This document shows, piece after piece, positions 6,161-17,467 of a stretch of 22,246 nucleotides of DNA. The stretch spans positions 1 to 22,246 of IMG/VR virus record IMGVR_UViG_3300020215_000145, one strand, 5' to 3'. This stretch comes from a virus. The first letter of the stretch is position 1; each line of letters begins with the position of its first letter. Made by a program: the position numbers and the translations under genes. The notes beneath the pieces were generated by a model that saw nothing but the letters and a program-made list of their open reading frames with translations, was not told the origin of the DNA and ran no database searches.

Positions 6161-7191
6161 GGGTCCTGACCCTGGCCCACCGGTACGTGCCGGTCCACTG
6201 CGCGGGCGCGGAGACCATGCTCCACAGCATGCTCCGCGCCCTCGCGCAGCGCGGCCACGACGTGCAGGTGGTGCTGTCCGCGCAGGGCGGCCAACCCTAC
6301 GAGCTCGACGGCGTGAAGGTGGCGCCGTTCGTGTCCAAGCGCGACGTGTTCGCGCACCTTCCGCACGCCGACGTCCTCATCAGCCATCTGATGAACACGC
6401 CGCGGGCCACATTCCTTGGCGGCTGGAACGGGGTGCCTGTGGTGCTGATCCACCACAACACCTTCGAGGTCACCAAACGCGCCTTGCTCACCCCGCAGGC
6501 CCGCGTCGACCTCGTCGTCGCCAACAGCCAGTGGATGGCCGACGACCTGCACGCCTGGTTCGCCGCCCGCGATATCCCGCCACCGAAGACGGTCATCGTG
6601 CGGCCACTGGCCGACCCCGGCGAGTACGCCACCACCCCCGGCGACCGGGTGACGCTGGTCAACCTGCGGCAGATGGACCGCGACCCCGGCACCGGATCCA
6701 CCATGGGCAAAGGCGCCGAGGTGTTCTGGGCACTGGCCGAACGCATGCCCAACACCCGCTTCCTCGGCGTCCGCGGCGCCTACGGCACTCAGATGATCCG
6801 TGACCTGCCGAACGTCGAAGTCCTCGAGCACGTGGCCCACGACGCGATGCGGGACAAGGTGTTCGCCCGCACCCGCGTGCTGCTCATGCCCAGCTCCTAC
6901 GAGAGCTGGGGCCGCGTCGGCGTGGAAGCGATGGCCTCCGGCATCCCCGTCATCGCCCACCCCACACCAGGGCTGCGCGAATCCCTCGGCGACGCGGGCA
7001 TCTTCCTCGACCGCGACGACACAGACGGCTGGTGCCGCGCCCTGCGCACCCTCGCCATGCCCGGACCCTACAAAGCCGCGTCCCGGCGCGCGCTGGCCCG
7101 CGCCGGCGAGCTGGCGCCGGGCCCCGACCTCGACCGCTGGTGCGACGCCGTCGAACACGCGGCGTCCCGACGACTCACGGGAGTGCGCTGA
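6157..7191 (+). CDS. GT4-type glycosyltransferase, coupled to the capsid gene
   Basis: A 344-residue GT-B fold retaining glycosyltransferase of the GT4 family. The N-terminal domain opens with RVLTLAHRYVPVHCAGAE, the usual first strand and glycine loop. The C-terminal nucleotide-sugar domain has the E-x7-E signature at E249 and E257 in YESWGRVGVEAMASGIPV, and MGKG with K185 upstream. The start is GTG at 6157, overlapping the capsid stop as GTGA; an in-frame extension to 6049 would run through capsid coding sequence and is rejected. The next gene begins at the last base of its stop. Donor sugar and acceptor are not readable from sequence. The position suggests modification of a virion protein, perhaps capsid or decoration protein. 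Modification of host wall polymers to block other phages is an alternative. Confidence 0.9.
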   Translation: MRVLTLAHRYVPVHCAGAETMLHSMLRALAQRGHDVQVVLSAQGGQPYELDGVKVAPFVSKRDVFAHLPHADVLISHLMNTPRATFLGGWNGVPVVLIHHNTFEVTKRALLTPQARVDLVVANSQWMADDLHAWFAARDIPPPKTVIVRPLADPGEYATTPGDRVTLVNLRQMDRDPGTGSTMGKGAEVFWALAERMPNTRFLGVRGAYGTQMIRDLPNVEVLEHVAHDAMRDKVFARTRVLLMPSSYESWGRVGVEAMASGIPVIAHPTPGLRESLGDAGIFLDRDDTDGWCRALRTLAMPGPYKAASRRALARAGELAPGPDLDRWCDAVEHAASRRLTGVR

Positions 7192-10976: not shown

Positions 10977-11540
10977 ATGACGCTCAACGCGCCTGCCGTA
11001 ACCGTCGGCATCACCGGTGAGGTCTACACGGCCGACTCCGGCGCCACCGTCACCGCCCCCACCTCATCCTCGTCAGTCCTTGACACCGACCTGTTCGGCC
11101 TCGGCTACGTGTCCGAAGACGGTGTCGAAGAGGCGTACGACGACACCGTCGAAGACATCGTGGCCTGGCAAAACGCCACCGTCGTGCGTTCCCTGACCAC
11201 CGAGTCCAAGGCCACCCTCGCCTTCACGTTGATCGAAACCAAGGGCAAGGTGTTGGAGCTGTACCACAAGGGCTCGCAGGTCGAGGTCGTCTCCGCCGGC
11301 GAGTGGAAGATCGACGTCAAGGCCCCCACCTCCGACCGGCGCCCCTTCGTCCTCGACGTCATCGACGGCGCCAAGCACATCCGCTTCTGGGTGCCCACCG
11401 GCGAGGTGACCGAGCGGGAGCCGATCGCCTACCAGAACGGCGAACCGATCGCCTACGGCGTCACGCTCACCTGCTACCCCGACGCGAACAACGTCGTGCT
11501 GACCAAGTTCGCCAACGACGCCAACTGGGGCTACAGCTAA
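10977..11540 (+). CDS. Major tail protein
   Basis: A 187-residue tail tube subunit. The pattern fits actinophage tail tube proteins: FGLGYVSEDGVEEAYDDTVEDIVAWQNATVVRSLTTESKATLAFTLIETKGKVLELYH, then RPFVLDVIDGAKHIRFWVPTGEVTER and a last strand YGVTLTCYPD. It forms hexameric rings stacked around the tape measure. The ATG at 10977 has a strong ribosome site (GGAGGA, 10968-10973), consistent with high production. No C-terminal Ig-like decoration domain is present. The gene is followed by the structured leader of the tail assembly chaperone. Confidence 0.92.
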   Translation: MTLNAPAVTVGITGEVYTADSGATVTAPTSSSSVLDTDLFGLGYVSEDGVEEAYDDTVEDIVAWQNATVVRSLTTESKATLAFTLIETKGKVLELYHKGSQVEVVSAGEWKIDVKAPTSDRRPFVLDVIDGAKHIRFWVPTGEVTEREPIAYQNGEPIAYGVTLTCYPDANNVVLTKFANDANWGYS

Positions 11541-11552
11541 ACCTTTCGATCT

Positions 11553-11626
11553 CCCGGTGGCGTGGATCGCGCGGACCCACGCCACCGGGTCAAACCCTGT
11601 CCGCGCGCACACAAGGAGTTCCGCGC
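11553..11626 (+). promoter_or_regulatory. Structured leader of the tail assembly chaperone (hairpin plus loop-complementary repeats)
   Basis: CCCGGTGGCGTGG (11553-11565) pairs perfectly with CCACGCCACCGGG (11577-11589), a 13 bp stem with an 11-base loop. The loop holds CGCGCGGA (11568-11575), complementary to TCCGCGCG (11600-11607), eight base pairs, which would make an H-type pseudoknot. A second copy, TCCGCGC (11620-11626), lies between the ribosome site AAGGAG (11613-11618) and the ATG at 11629, and can also pair with the loop. No T-run follows, so it is not a textbook terminator. The arrangement suggests control of chaperone translation relative to the tail tube gene, or transcript processing. 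Confidence 0.7.
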
Positions 11627-11628
11627 AC

Positions 11629-11997
11629 ATGACTTTCTCTGTCCGCAAGACCCTCGCCGACGCGAGCCTCGCACCGTTCGAGTACGAGGACGCCGCAGGC
11701 AAGCCACAGGTGCTTCCGCACGCCAAGACCCTCAGCCCAGACCAGGCCATGCGTATCGCCATCCACGGCGACTTCGAGGGCGTCCTCAACGAAATCGCCC
11801 CCGGCCAAGGGACTGCACTAGCCAACCTACCCATGATCGTGATTGAGCCGCTCCTCGCGGCCTGGTTCGAGCACTCCGAAATCGACCTGTCCGGGGCCGG
11901 CCTGGGAAAACCGCCGAAGTCCTCGCCGTCCTCCACCAGCACCCGGGCGCCCTCGAAGCGGACCTCGCGTTCCGCGGCATCACGCTCTCGGAAGTAA
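11629..11997 (+). CDS. Tail assembly chaperone, unshifted product
   Basis: A 122-residue protein (lambda G-like) that coats the tape measure during tail assembly. The start is ATG 11629, with AAGGAG at 11613-11618. Residues 1-93 look like a conserved chaperone (FEYEDAAGKPQVLPHAKTLSPDQAMRIAIHGDF, LPMIVIEPLLAAWFEHSEIDLSG). The last 28 residues are Ser/Arg-rich low complexity, as expected where the zero frame runs antisense to selection for the overlapping shifted frame. An upstream in-frame GTG at 11557 lies in the structured leader and has no ribosome site, so it is rejected. Confidence 0.88.
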   Translation: MTFSVRKTLADASLAPFEYEDAAGKPQVLPHAKTLSPDQAMRIAIHGDFEGVLNEIAPGQGTALANLPMIVIEPLLAAWFEHSEIDLSGAGLGKPPKSSPSSTSTRAPSKRTSRSAASRSRK

Positions 11998-12290
11998 GCC
12001 TGCGCCAGCTGGAGGTCTACGTTCCGGCGCTGGCCGAGACCGAGGGCACGGCCCTGCGCCGGGCGTTGACCGGGGACACCTGGACACGCACCGATCACCT
12101 GCTGGCCTTGGCCGTAGACCGGCTCGGGGTCCTGATCTGGCAGCAAACCAAGGACGGCCGCAAGGGGCGCAACCGGCCAAAGCCGATCAGCCCGCTCGCG
12201 AAGAACAACGCCGCCAAGTACGGCAAGACCAGCCGGTCACCGGAAGAGGTCAAGGCCTACCTCGCGAGGTTCGGGCCGCCGCCCAGCTGA
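11629..12290 (+). CDS. Tail assembly chaperone, -1 frameshift fusion product
   Basis: The predicted lambda GT-like protein, about 220 residues: 94 from the zero frame, then 126 after a -1 slip at 11904-11910. The -1 frame is open from the slip to TGA at 12288. It reads sensibly from the first codon (TAEVLAVLHQHPGALEADLAFRGITLSEV, then LRQLEVYVPALAETEGTALRRALTGDTW and LLALAVDRLGVLIWQQT), ending with a basic NRPKPISPLAKNNAAKYGKTS tail. This frame has no convincing start of its own before 12066 and no ribosome site. A reading that begins at ATG 12066 would lose the conserved helical part. The tape measure gene starts 15 bases later. Confidence 0.87.
11904..11910 (+). other. Programmed -1 ribosomal frameshift site (G GGA AAA)
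   Basis: GGGAAAA in the zero frame reads G GGA AAA, the X XXY YYZ heptamer. After slipping, both tRNAs re-pair on GGG and AAA. It falls at the point where the zero-frame protein turns low-complexity and the -1 frame turns protein-like. G GGA AAA is a slip site widely used in siphophage tail chaperone genes. Confidence 0.87.
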
Positions 12291-12305: not shown

Positions 12306-14087
12306 GTGGCCGAAGAAGTCGGCGCCGCATACGTCTCCCTCATCCCGTCCGCCCGCGGCTTCTCCAAGCTGGCCCAGCGGGAGCTCGACGCGGAGCTTCG
12401 CGGCAACCGCACCCCGAAGATCCGCGTCACCCCGGAAATCGACGCCGACACCGCCCGGGCGCAGCTCACCGCCCAGCTCACCGGCGCCGGCCAGCGGATC
12501 TCCCTGCCGGTCGACGTCGACCAGCAGACCGCCAGCGCGCTGTTCCGCCAACTCGCCGGCCTCGGCGGCGAGTCCGGGCGTGCGTTCGGCGACAGCTTCA
12601 CCCGGGACGCCTCGGGCAGGCTGCGGGACTCCAGAGGCCGTTTCGTCGCCGCCGGACAAGAGGCCGGCCGCGACGTCGACCGCGGGCTGCGGGCGTCGCT
12701 CAATGAGACCGACCGCGGCCTGCTCCGGAACCTCGGTAACGCCGGCGACACCGACCGGCGCGGCCGGGTGCTCGGAAACCTGTTCGGCCGGGCCCTCGGC
12801 GGTGGCATCGACTCGGCCAAAGGCTCGATCACCGCAGCGCTGACCGCCCCGTTCCGCGACCCGAAGCTCGCCCTGATCCTGGTCGCCGCGCTGGTCTCCC
12901 CGCTCGGCGCGGCCTTGGTCCCGGCGCTTGGCGCCGCCATCTCGGCCGCTCTCATCGGCGCCGCTGGCCTCGGCGTCATCGGGCTCGGCGCGTTCCTGCT
13001 CAAGGACGACCCCCAGGTCAGGAAGGCCGCCGGTGACCTCGGCAAGACCGCGGCGGGTGCGTTCACCGCCGCTGCGCAGCCGCTGGTGCAGCCATTCGTG
13101 GCCTCGCTCAACATCCTCCGCGACCTCGTCAACGAGCTGCGGCCCGAGCTGGCCGAGATGTTCACGGCGATCGCGCCGGCGATCGTACCGCTGACCAGGG
13201 GGCTCGCCGGGTTCATCCGGGAGGCCATGCCGGGACTCCTGGCGCTGGTCAAGGCGGCGACCCCGTTCCTGATGGACCTTGAGCACACCCTTCCCCGGCT
13301 CGGCGATCACCTGAGCCGGTTCTTCGGGGCGATCTCAGCCGGCGGCCCAGGCGCGACCCAGTTCTTCCGCGACTTCCTTCACGTGCTCGGCCTCGGGCTC
13401 GTCTTCTTCGGCAGCCTCATCCGCGTCCTGACCGGCTGGTACGCACACACGCGGACCGTCGTTAAGGGCGTCGCCGCTGTCTGGCTCTTCTTCCAGAGCC
13501 TGACCGGCAGGGTCGTCCTGGCCGTGATCGGCTTCTTCGGGCGGCTGGGCCGCTTCGTGAACGGCGTGTGGACCTCTGCCCGCGCCGAAGGCGGCCGATT
13601 CCTGCGCTGGTTGCAGGGCTTGCCGGGCTGGGTCAAGGCCGCGATCGGTGGTCTGGGAACGCTGCTGATCAACTCTGGTAAGGATTTGATCGCCGGCTTG
13701 ATCCGGGGTATCCGCTCCAAGATCGGCGACCTCGCCGGCGTGATGGGTGACGTGGCGCAGAAGGTGCGTGACTACTGGCCCTTCTCCCCGGCGAAGACCG
13801 GGCCGCTGTCCGGCCGCGGCAGCCTGTTCTACGCCGGCCAGAACCTGTCGACCGACCTCGCCTCAGGCATGGAGCGGCGCTTGCCGGTGGTCGAGTCGGC
13901 CAGTGCCCAACTCGCGGGCGCGGTCGGGTTCGGTACCCGTGGCGGCGACGGCGCCGCGCTCGCACCGGCCGGGATCACCGCCGGCTGGCGGCCGGACGCG
14001 ACCGGTGACCAACTCCTGGACGCGATCCGAGGCCTGATCGAATTCCGGTACGGCGGCGACCCCGTCATGGCGCTCGGCAGCCGCTGA
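12306..14087 (+). CDS. Tape measure protein
   Basis: A 593-residue tape measure, short for the family. It sets tail length and helps DNA entry. Regions: an N-terminal VGAAYVSLIPSARGFSKLAQRELDAEL opening typical of actinophage tape measures; charged helices to about 185; a hydrophobic stretch at about 188-232 rich in Ala, Gly, Leu and Ile; a second hydrophobic block around 355-420; and a C-terminal signature near 488-515 (DYWPFSPAKTGPLSGRGSLFYAG) seen in many actinophage tape measures. The GTG at 12306 follows AAGGGGG (12292-12298). By the usual length rule of about 1.5 angstroms per residue the tail would be roughly 85-90 nm. No peptidoglycan hydrolase domain is evident. The next gene begins at its stop. 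Confidence 0.93.
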   Translation: MAEEVGAAYVSLIPSARGFSKLAQRELDAELRGNRTPKIRVTPEIDADTARAQLTAQLTGAGQRISLPVDVDQQTASALFRQLAGLGGESGRAFGDSFTRDASGRLRDSRGRFVAAGQEAGRDVDRGLRASLNETDRGLLRNLGNAGDTDRRGRVLGNLFGRALGGGIDSAKGSITAALTAPFRDPKLALILVAALVSPLGAALVPALGAAISAALIGAAGLGVIGLGAFLLKDDPQVRKAAGDLGKTAAGAFTAAAQPLVQPFVASLNILRDLVNELRPELAEMFTAIAPAIVPLTRGLAGFIREAMPGLLALVKAATPFLMDLEHTLPRLGDHLSRFFGAISAGGPGATQFFRDFLHVLGLGLVFFGSLIRVLTGWYAHTRTVVKGVAAVWLFFQSLTGRVVLAVIGFFGRLGRFVNGVWTSARAEGGRFLRWLQGLPGWVKAAIGGLGTLLINSGKDLIAGLIRGIRSKIGDLAGVMGDVAQKVRDYWPFSPAKTGPLSGRGSLFYAGQNLSTDLASGMERRLPVVESASAQLAGAVGFGTRGGDGAALAPAGITAGWRPDATGDQLLDAIRGLIEFRYGGDPVMALGSR

Positions 14088-17000
14088 TGGCGTTCCCCGA
14101 CGAGCCGCTGCCGCTGATCGTCGAAGCCGTCTTCGGCGGTGACACCGTTGACCTGTCCGACCGGCTCCTCAGCGACACCGTGTCCATCACCCGCGGCAAG
14201 GCCGCCGGTGCCCGCCAGGTATCCACCGGCTCGTGCAAGCTCGTCCTCGACGACTCTGACGGCGCCCTGACCCCGCTCAACCCGACCGGCGACTACTACC
14301 CGCATGTGCGCCGCGGTGTCGAGGTGCGGGTGCGGCTGCCCGAAGCGCCCGGCAGTGGCGCCGCCGGCGCGGCGTCGGCCAGCGCTGTCGCACCTTCCCT
14401 CGGTGTGGTCGACGGGCCGGCCCTGCTCGTCTGCGCGTGGCTGGTTTTCGACGACGGCACGCCCACCAACTTCAACCTCACCGTGCCCGGAGCGATGGTC
14501 GCCGGCCCGGAGGCGGACGACGGCAGCTTCGGCGGCAGCGTCGCCGCCAGCCAGACCGTGGGCGCCGGCGCGACCGGCACCCGCACCGCCACCGCGAGCC
14601 CAACCCCCGACGGGTGGATGGCCATCAGCGTCGCCGTCCCCGGCACTGTCACCGTCGCCGAACGGCTGTCGGACGCCGCCGTCGCCGCGGACGTCACCCT
14701 CACCACCTCGGCAACACCGGCCAACGGTTGGCTTCTGGCCATCCAGGGCTGGGACCTGAGCGACAACAGCCCACCCCGGCCCTCCGGTGACGGGTGGATG
14801 CTGCTCGGCGAGGCGGACGGCGTCGGCCGGATGCGGGCGTGGCTCAAACCCCTGTACGACCGCAGCCCTCAGTCGGTGACGTTCGGTGCGAGCCCGGCAT
14901 CGGTCGACAACCACGCTCACCTCCTCGTGCTGTCCGGGGTTCGCGCGATGGTGCTGCCGACCGATTCGGCGCCGCGGTTCACCGGCACCGTGTCGTCGTA
15001 CCGGCCGCGGCTGGTGCCGACAACCGACGGAGTCCGCGCTGTTCAGCAGATCGACGTCGCCGGCCCGCTGCGGCGCCTGGAAAAGGGGCAGCCGCCGCTC
15101 GAGTCGCCGCTTCGCCGCCAGGCCCTCAGCGCACAAAACGCCGCGTCGTTGAAGGCGTATTGGCCGTGCGAGGACGGATCCGAGGCCACCCAGATCGCCG
15201 CGGGGCTGCCCGGCGTCCAACCGATGCGGATCACCGGAGACCGGAACTTCGCCGCTGACTCCACGAGTTTCCCCGGTTCGGCGCCGCTGCTGCGTCTGGC
15301 CAACAACACCGCGCTGGCCGCCAACATCCCCACACACGCAGGCACCGGCACTGTCGCCTACCGCGGCCTGTTCGCCTTCCCCCCGGGTGGGCTGACGGAC
15401 GGCACCGTCATCCTCGACCTGTGGCAGGCCGTCACCAACGTGCGCCGCTGGCGCATCACCTACCACACCGGCGGTCTGCTGCAGCTGTGGGCGATCGGCC
15501 CCGGCGGGGCTGTCCTTGCCCAGACCGGACTGATCGGGTTCGCCGTCAACGGCACCGCCTCCATGCTCGGGTTCGCGGTGGTCCAGGAAGGCGGCAATGC
15601 CCACTGGCACATCTTCACCCGCCACGTCGCCGGCGGCCAGGTAGTGCAGGGCGGCCTCGACGGGACCTTCCCCGGCCAACCCGTGAACGTGGCCGCCGAG
15701 CTTTACATCAACCCGTTCGGCGGCCTGACCGACGTCACGACCGGCCACCACCTCGTCGGCACCGACCTCAACCTCGCCAGCGACATCCAGGCCGCGCTCA
15801 CCGGGTACGCCGGGGAGCGGGCCGGCACCCGCTTCCTACGCCTGGCGGTAACCGAGAACGGCGTGGCCGCCAGCGTCGCCGGCAACGTCCAAGACACCAC
15901 ACCCATGGGGCCGCAGGGCGTAGACACGCTGCCGAACCTGCTGCACGAGACAGCGGCCGCCGACGGCGCCGTACTCGGCGAGGCCCGCACCTCAACCGAC
16001 CTCGTCTTCCGTACCCGCACCGACATGTACAACCAGGTGCCCGCGGTAATGGTCGACCTCGCCACCTACCGCACCACCGCCGGCACGTCCGCCGGCGTGC
16101 TGGCCCCGGTGTACGACGTCACCGGCCTCGTCAACGCCTTCACCGCCGAACGCAAGGGCGGCTCCTCAGAGATCGCGGTCGACGACACGTCGATCGCAGA
16201 GGACGGCCTGTTCGAGGACCGCGACGAATACAACGTCTACACCGATGACCTGCTGCCCGACATCGCCGGCTGGGCGGTCCATCTCGGCACCGTCGACGAG
16301 TACCGCAACCCCGCGCTCGCCCTCGACCTGGGCGCCAACCCGCAGCTGATCCCGCAGTGGGCGGCGGTGGAACTCGGCGACCGGATACAGCGGCTCAACC
16401 CGCCCGCCCCGCACCCGCCGGGCGGCATCGACCAGATTCTCGACGGCTACAGCGAGACCATCGGGCCGAAACGGTGGGAGATCTCCGCCAACATGCAGCC
16501 CGGCGGCCCGTGGGGGGTAGCCGAGGTGTTCAACCCGGGCGCCGAGCACGGCTCCCTCGCGCGAGTCGCGGGCGAGCAGGACATGGTCCTCGCACAGGCC
16601 ATCGACGACAACGACACCGCGATCCTCGTGACGAGCCTGTCCGGACAACAGCGGTGGTGCACGCCCACCGACGACGGCGAGTCGGCGGCCGACTTCCCCC
16701 ACGATGTGACGGTCGGCGGAGAACGCATGACAGTGTCCGACGTGGACCCTGGCGCCTCCGACGGGTTCGGTCGCACCGTCGCGGGCGGCTGGGGCACCCC
16801 CGACACGTCCGGAACCGGCGCCGTCTGGGCGGTCACCCACCCCGCGGACTCCTCGGTCACCTCGGGAGAGGGACGCTTCGCGCAGCCGAGCACCGCCACG
16901 CTTCGCACCGCCACGCTCGACATCGGCGCCGCCAATGCCGAGATCTCGGTGGAAACCATTCTCACGGTCGCGAACGCGACCGGGGCCCCGTGGACGAAGT

Positions 17001-17467
17001 GGATCGGCCTGCGATGCGCCGACCTGTCGAACTACTACGTGGCACAGTTGATCCTCAACACGAGCGGTCAGGTCCAGCTCACGGTCATCAAGCGTGTGAC
17101 CGGGGCACTGACGTCGCTGGACCAAGGCGGCTCCCTCGTTACAGCCGGCGTGAACACGGCCATGGACCGGTGGCGCATCACCTTCAAAGCCGCCGGCCCC
17201 GACCTGGTCGCCACAGCGACGAACCTGACCAGTGGCGGCTCGGCGCGGGTCGGCGGCCACGACGACGACCTCTCCGCCGGCAACCTGCTGCTCCTCGGCG
17301 ACCGGCTGGAGGCCGGCAACGGCAACGTCGTGACAGGCCGGTGGGACAACCTGACCGTCACCACGCCGCAGATCCTCACCGTTACCCGTTCCGTCAACGG
17401 GGTCGTCAAGTCGCATGACCCCGCCGCTGTCATCGACGTAGCCGACCCCGCGTACGTAGCCCGATGA
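14087..17467 (+). CDS. Large tail-tip protein, a core interrupted by inserted domains
   Basis: A 1126-residue minor tail protein, the only large tip protein in the window. Core segments read like an actinophage distal tail/baseplate protein: 1-85 (VSITRGKAAGARQVSTGSCKLVLDDSDGALTPLNP), 296-350 (PRFTGTVSSYRPRLV, DVAGPLRRLEKG) and about 565-885. Three units appear set into it. About 86-295 contains a beta domain with a low-complexity entry. About 353-562 is LamG/concanavalin-like (LKAYWPCEDGS, then sandwich strands). About 893-1093 is another sandwich-like domain (DGFGRTVAGGWGTPDTSG, then MDRWRITFKAAGPDLVATA). After it the core resumes with LTVTRSVNGVVKSH. The inserts probably contact the host surface. 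The ATG shares a base with the tape measure stop. Confidence 0.88.
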   Translation: MAFPDEPLPLIVEAVFGGDTVDLSDRLLSDTVSITRGKAAGARQVSTGSCKLVLDDSDGALTPLNPTGDYYPHVRRGVEVRVRLPEAPGSGAAGAASASAVAPSLGVVDGPALLVCAWLVFDDGTPTNFNLTVPGAMVAGPEADDGSFGGSVAASQTVGAGATGTRTATASPTPDGWMAISVAVPGTVTVAERLSDAAVAADVTLTTSATPANGWLLAIQGWDLSDNSPPRPSGDGWMLLGEADGVGRMRAWLKPLYDRSPQSVTFGASPASVDNHAHLLVLSGVRAMVLPTDSAPRFTGTVSSYRPRLVPTTDGVRAVQQIDVAGPLRRLEKGQPPLESPLRRQALSAQNAASLKAYWPCEDGSEATQIAAGLPGVQPMRITGDRNFAADSTSFPGSAPLLRLANNTALAANIPTHAGTGTVAYRGLFAFPPGGLTDGTVILDLWQAVTNVRRWRITYHTGGLLQLWAIGPGGAVLAQTGLIGFAVNGTASMLGFAVVQEGGNAHWHIFTRHVAGGQVVQGGLDGTFPGQPVNVAAELYINPFGGLTDVTTGHHLVGTDLNLASDIQAALTGYAGERAGTRFLRLAVTENGVAASVAGNVQDTTPMGPQGVDTLPNLLHETAAADGAVLGEARTSTDLVFRTRTDMYNQVPAVMVDLATYRTTAGTSAGVLAPVYDVTGLVNAFTAERKGGSSEIAVDDTSIAEDGLFEDRDEYNVYTDDLLPDIAGWAVHLGTVDEYRNPALALDLGANPQLIPQWAAVELGDRIQRLNPPAPHPPGGIDQILDGYSETIGPKRWEISANMQPGGPWGVAEVFNPGAEHGSLARVAGEQDMVLAQAIDDNDTAILVTSLSGQQRWCTPTDDGESAADFPHDVTVGGERMTVSDVDPGASDGFGRTVAGGWGTPDTSGTGAVWAVTHPADSSVTSGEGRFAQPSTATLRTATLDIGAANAEISVETILTVANATGAPWTKWIGLRCADLSNYYVAQLILNTSGQVQLTVIKRVTGALTSLDQGGSLVTAGVNTAMDRWRITFKAAGPDLVATATNLTSGGSARVGGHDDDLSAGNLLLLGDRLEAGNGNVVTGRWDNLTVTTPQILTVTRSVNGVVKSHDPAAVIDVADPAYVAR

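Follow-up and report, generated by a model that had tools for sequence, protein, structure and literature searches.

A candidate leader with two competing pseudoknot targets between the tail tube and tail assembly chaperone genes of actinophages

The class I preQ1 riboswitch is an H-type pseudoknot that brings its 3' strand to the ribosome-binding site and contains a ligand pocket and a conserved core. In ColIb-P9 (IncI-alpha), formation of a pseudoknot upstream of the ribosome-binding site decides translation start: it activates repZ, and an antisense RNA blocks this (Asano and Mizobuchi 1998, in PMC8383071). The mRNA of the timP toxin has mutually exclusive leader folds, of which the open one contains a pseudoknot (PMC11228461). 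The closest phage case is the gene 32 leader of T4 and T2, a phage mRNA leader pseudoknot in translational control, which a 2010 review considered perhaps the only viral pseudoknot in translational autoregulation (PMC3014915). Here we describe a leader in an actinophage contig, the IMG/VR virus record IMGVR_UViG_3300020215_000145, which was analysed over its whole 22,246 bases (the window). It lies between the genes for the major tail (tube) protein and the tail assembly chaperone (TAC), and the loop of its hairpin can pair with either of two downstream targets, one of which lies in the TAC initiation region. We propose that this is an undescribed cis-acting RNA leader that tunes TAC translation via competing pseudoknots. 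The translational effect is deduced from the layout, and we put the probability of this reading at roughly 0.7.

The element lies in the region 11541 to 11628 of the plus strand, between the end of the tube gene and the ATG of the TAC gene (11629-11631). Its hairpin is a perfect 13-bp stem of the 5' arm CCCGGTGGCGTGG (S1, 11553-11565) and the 3' arm CCACGCCACCGGG (11577-11589), exactly as the original prediction had claimed, closed by the 11-nt loop ATCGCGCGGAC (11566-11576). The loop segment CGCGCGGAC (11568-11576) is complementary to both downstream sites. A 9-nt linker (11590-11598), which would span the stem in the first pseudoknot, leads to the distal target T1 (GTCCGCGCG, 11599-11607). 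T1 is complementary to loop positions 11568-11576 over 9 bp, one pair longer than the helix with 11600-11607 that had been predicted. The Shine-Dalgarno sequence of the TAC gene, AAGGAG, lies at 11613-11618. The proximal target T2 (TCCGCGC, 11620-11626), which had likewise been located between ribosome site and start codon, fills the spacer between the two and can form 7 bp with loop positions 11569-11575.

The window element is not a product of chance. In the shuffled controls that had been suggested as a check, similar structures were rare: when 11541-11640 was dinucleotide-shuffled 200 times, a single shuffle folded as well (folding z -3.1). A stem of at least 13 bp arose in 20 of 20,000 dinucleotide shuffles of 11541-11628, and none of 20,000 combined a stem of at least 9 bp with a loop 7-mer complemented twice downstream. 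Among the 172 hairpins of at least 11 bp on both strands of the window, the TAC-leader hairpin ties for first place with one other, with a two-target p at the floor of 0.001. A cluster of TCCGCGC at 6206-6283 was considered as another copy and rejected, as it sits at the start of the next gene without the hairpin and two-target layout.

A DNA search of the region against phages gave no match, and the comparison was therefore made via relatives of the tube protein; a search of viral contigs with the TAC protein found no relatives. The 13-row tube alignment was too diverse for a pattern search and was used instead as a profile on whole genomes, which added prophages of actinobacterial genomes. 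The pairing counts given below apply to junctions sampled through this one tube profile, and to the tail types that it reaches. A pattern scan of viral contigs also hit GC-rich coding DNA by chance in many places; these matches had no hairpin and were discarded.

The same layout is found in phages or prophages of Streptomyces, Mycobacterium, Gordonia, Arthrobacter, Microbacterium and Rothia, and in a Micromonosporaceae bin. The loop sequences are many, and a change in the loop is accompanied by matching changes in both targets. Tube relatives and pattern scan together yielded 24 distinct elements, built on 19 distinct stems, in which the loop GCGCGGA is followed by two or more TCCGCG copies ahead of a start codon. 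Elements at loci L088, L099 and L131 have three downstream TCCGCG copies rather than two. For the 11 stem pairs closest to the loop, every position shows at least two standard pair types and substitutions in both arms; there is one non-standard cell overall. Upstream of these elements there is in most cases a gene that can be recognised as a tube gene, and downstream a gene for a short TAC-like protein, often from different sequence families. At the same junction in annotated phages, other loops with matching targets occur in Streptomyces phages VWB and Samy, Rothia phage Spartoi, Gordonia phages Sapo and Mellie, Arthrobacter phages Brynnie and Marchesin, Microbacterium phage Coltrane, and mycobacteriophages TM4, Hurricane, Pokerus, Shaobing, Cheetobro, Angel and Taheera. 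In two related prophages with tube proteins 71% identical, an extra G in the loop is matched by an extra C in both targets (ACCCGC twice in L198, ACCCCGC twice in L200).

The sample comprised 181 unique tube-to-TAC junctions, of which 135 have a stem of at least 11 bp. At 78 of these 135, the hairpin pairs two targets beyond dinucleotide shuffles (p<=0.05; 55 at the floor of 1/301), compared with 8 of 99 control hairpins, which precede other starts with a Shine-Dalgarno sequence at these loci. The median loop/target score is 39 for an element's own loop versus 13 for loops swapped between unlike elements. We also used fixed windows, the proximal one being the 12 nt before the start codon and the distal one everything upstream of -18. 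Here, the own loop beats 95% of foreign windows in 63/135 (proximal) and 70/135 (distal) junctions. Among the 57 two-target negatives it does so in 4 (proximal) and 1 (distal). These hairpins serve as natural controls, in which a long G+C stem alone does not generate the signal. A strict scan of 1.79 Mb of collected sequence found 51 places, 42 of them at tube-profile junctions, in a set in which one loop type is over-represented because the pattern had itself been used to gather part of it. Of the eight distinct others among the matches listed, six are TAC junctions of annotated mycobacteriophages, one is the second copy in the window described below, and one is a spurious cluster of repeats.

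Many phages share the gene order (tube, then TAC), the mutually exclusive pairings and a second target positioned on the initiation region. Among 76 relatives, the proximal target ends at most 3 nt from the start codon in 60, the distal target mostly ends 20-30 nt upstream of the start, and the linker from stem to distal target mostly measures 8-14 nt. In TM4- and Angel-like phages, the proximal target overlaps the Shine-Dalgarno sequence (CACCAGGAGG, CACCAGGAG) instead of the spacer. As the initiation site is covered in these two different ways, covering it appears to be the point. The two pairings share at least five loop bases in 74/76 relatives, and the T1 and T2 helices would thus exclude each other; their mean duplex energies, -16.3 and -15.9 kcal/mol, are nearly equal. 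In Marchesin and Brynnie, T1 and T2 pair with different, overlapping parts of the loop. Loci L006, L007, L085 and L115 carry several hundred extra bases between the tube gene and the element, which adjoins the TAC start. A different 13-bp hairpin lies directly 3' of the tube gene in L007. Compensatory change in related phages, a check that the original prediction had proposed, is pronounced in both the stem and the loop/target pairings. Taken together, these comparisons strongly support RNA pairing, comprising the hairpin, both complementarities, their co-variation, mutual exclusivity and location.

In the mechanism that we propose, the long hairpin would present about 7-12 pairing loop bases, which could form a second helix, either an H-type pseudoknot or a kiss between loop and single strand, with either repeat. 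If the loop pairs with T1, between the hairpin and the Shine-Dalgarno sequence, the initiation region would be single-stranded and TAC would be translated (open state). If it pairs with T2, on the initiation region, 30S binding would be blocked (closed state), and T2 would thus compete with the ribosome. T1 would be transcribed first and lies nearer, and T2 is predicted to be similar in strength, so that the leader would split between the open and closed states. The outcome would be that TAC initiation is tuned to a low rate while the tube gene, carried by the same mRNA, is highly translated. This mechanism would require no ligand or protein, though either may take part. We infer the folding in vivo, the sign of the translational effect and the purpose of setting the tube:TAC stoichiometry.

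By its compensated complementarity between loop and downstream strand, the element is a candidate member of the leader pseudoknots that gate a ribosome-binding site, and repZ and timP are probably closest in how they work. It differs from repZ in that two tandem targets compete for one loop, one of them on the start region, and in that no antisense RNA is known. The timP leader belongs to a bacterial toxin mRNA with an antitoxin sRNA, and its sequence and layout are unrelated. The gene 32 pseudoknot is bound by gp32, lies 67 nt upstream of the start, has an A+U-rich operator and has no second target. In contrast to the conserved core of the preQ1 riboswitch, the bases of the window-type element vary freely provided that pairing is kept. 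The SAS/ESAS repeats of cluster K mycobacteriophages also adjoin start codons, with inverted repeats upstream. However, they are a fixed 13-bp sequence in the right (non-structural) genome half, for which the authors find no hairpin-pairing support (PMC3203893). The window element was rejected as one of them: the 13-bp GGGATAGGAGCCC is not at its start, which reads AAGGAGTTCCGCGCACATG, it precedes a structural gene, and its hairpin pairing is supported. TM4 has both ESAS/SAS-type repeats and the two-target element, at different genes.

The original prediction knew of no described element of this form. In line with this, Rfam 15 gave no match above the gathering score in 12 loci including the window element, and at a relaxed threshold only chance-level minus-strand matches across 11400-11800. 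A search of the open literature, which left most subscription papers outside, found no description of it.

Several observations weigh against the proposed tuning of TAC. The pairings had been expected to be kept in related phages. They are kept, and co-vary, at the 78 junction hairpins, but the other 57 of the 135 lack two-target pairing and about half of the sampled junctions lack the element, which must therefore be dispensable in some lineages. A large Streptomyces TAC family (phrog_10551; L174, L244-L288) has a long G+C hairpin at the junction with no loop/target pairing, and at these loci the hairpin may serve a different function, such as termination. Neither phiC31 nor Streptococcus phage Javan263, which have no gap between the genes, carries the element, and it is also absent from a Propionibacterium phage (26-nt gap) and from mycobacteriophage Nadezda (16-nt gap). 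No element was detected in Corynebacterium phage Lederberg or in Gordonia phages Catfish and Ronaldo. Rowa and L192 resemble it, but were rejected since their CCACCC targets are of low complexity and do not reach significance. The distal helix ends about 20-25 nt before the start, close to where the 30S footprint ends, and its neutrality for initiation may be doubtful. Inverted loop matches are significant in 78/135 junctions, and direct-orientation matches, in 23/135, are also above chance. GC-repetitive loops are common and inflate some matches, which weakens single cases and not the whole set.

A further such point comes from the window itself, where a second copy with the same layout lies on the minus strand (21859-21776). 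Its 12-bp hairpin (21859-21823) has the loop TCCGGCAGGGTCT, which forms 10 and 9 perfect pairs with the targets GACCCTGCCG (21809-21800) and AGACCCTGC (21798-21790). These are followed by a Shine-Dalgarno sequence, AGGAG (21787-21783), and the GTG start (21776-21774) of a DUF4352 gene (21776-21099, phrog_806). The element is thus not exclusive to TAC genes, and since this gene lies outside the tail operon, the tube:TAC ratio is not its sole use. The two relatives of the DUF4352 gene that were examined (L314, L315) have no such leader. Perhaps the element is a general actinophage device that has re-evolved or moved among genes such as TAC and DUF4352, and works as a switch between two states under the control of a factor from phage or host, for example excess tube or TAC protein. 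We regard this broader reading as doubtful; if it were true, chaperone synthesis would track tail assembly.

The hairpin could instead be a transcription terminator or a 3'-end stabiliser of the tube mRNA that alone lowers TAC expression, the loop pairings being secondary. The Streptomyces family that retains the junction hairpin without loop pairing speaks for this, and the U-tract can be missing from actinobacterial terminators. Here, however, no T-run follows the stem (TCAAACCCTG), and a terminator scan did not list the hairpin. A terminator also gives no prediction that the loop should match two targets, one of them at the start codon, and where DNA is inserted (L006, L085, L115) the element keeps to the TAC start and not to the tube stop. 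We therefore consider this explanation unlikely. In cluster O phages, a hairpin in the corresponding position between these genes has been read as a terminator; it differs in that TTTCT follows it and no loop/target pairing was described (PMC4351075).

About equally improbable is a feedback sensor, in which one of the folds is bound by TAC, the tube protein or some other factor, which flips the switch, or the hairpin acts in trans on other mRNA copies. Among phages there is a precedent in T4 gene 32, whose product binds the pseudoknot in its own leader (PMC3014915), and equal duplex energies would suit a switch. Yet sequence is not conserved beyond the pairings, and since stem, loop and targets differ from phage to phage there is no obvious common binding site; stem-to-T1 linkers of mostly 8-14 nt fit pairing in cis.

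The weakest alternative takes the three copies, one inverted in the loop and two direct, as sites for a lineage-specific DNA- or RNA-binding protein with incidental base pairing; operator-like repeats with lineage-specific consensus near starts are known (ESAS of cluster K phages, PMC3203893) and a changing protein would likewise make three copies co-change, but we judge it very unlikely, as the inverted copy is the tip of a covarying hairpin, inverted matches outnumber direct ones (78 versus 23), T1 and T2 share no single core in Marchesin and Brynnie, and the Shine-Dalgarno sequence lies within the proximal copy in TM4-like phages. A wobble test speaks weakly against protein sites (36 G-U-compatible differences versus 22.3 expected without transition bias), weakly because transitions are common anyway.

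The genes flanking the leader are those of a tail operon. The upstream cistron, the tube gene (10977-11540, plus strand; stop TAA at 11538-11540), matches phrog_117 (E 9.6e-45). The downstream cistron, between the tube and tape measure genes, is the G-type open reading frame (ORF) of TAC (11629-11997, plus strand, 122 aa), which alone has no profile match. It contains an in-frame -1 slippery site, GGGAAAA (G GGA AAA, 11904-11910), and a putative GT fusion would end at 12290. The -1 frame (11910-12287) matches the TAC profile phrog_1326 (E 1.3e-19) and PF17318, and the next gene matches tape measure profiles, which identifies a G/GT chaperone locus. The short ORF, slippery site, second TAC frame and following tape measure gene are the features of a TAC locus, with frameshifting predicted. 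Scanning the window for promoters gave no sigma-70-like site; for an actinophage, this is weak evidence against an antisense RNA that would compete for the loop. Directly 3' of the tape measure gene, a 1126-aa protein (14087-17467) matches a family annotated as phosphodiesterase and phrog_5313, whose function is unknown.

The tail of a long-tailed phage takes hundreds of tube subunits, whereas the chaperones that load these are needed in small and balanced amounts, for which a -1 frameshift within the TAC gene is the known control (PMC5009743). The leader would be a second, upstream control point, with strong co-variation, and it is present in well-used phages such as TM4 and VWB. The tube:chaperone stoichiometry becomes testable by point mutations. 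It would also add a rare phage case of translational control by a leader pseudoknot.
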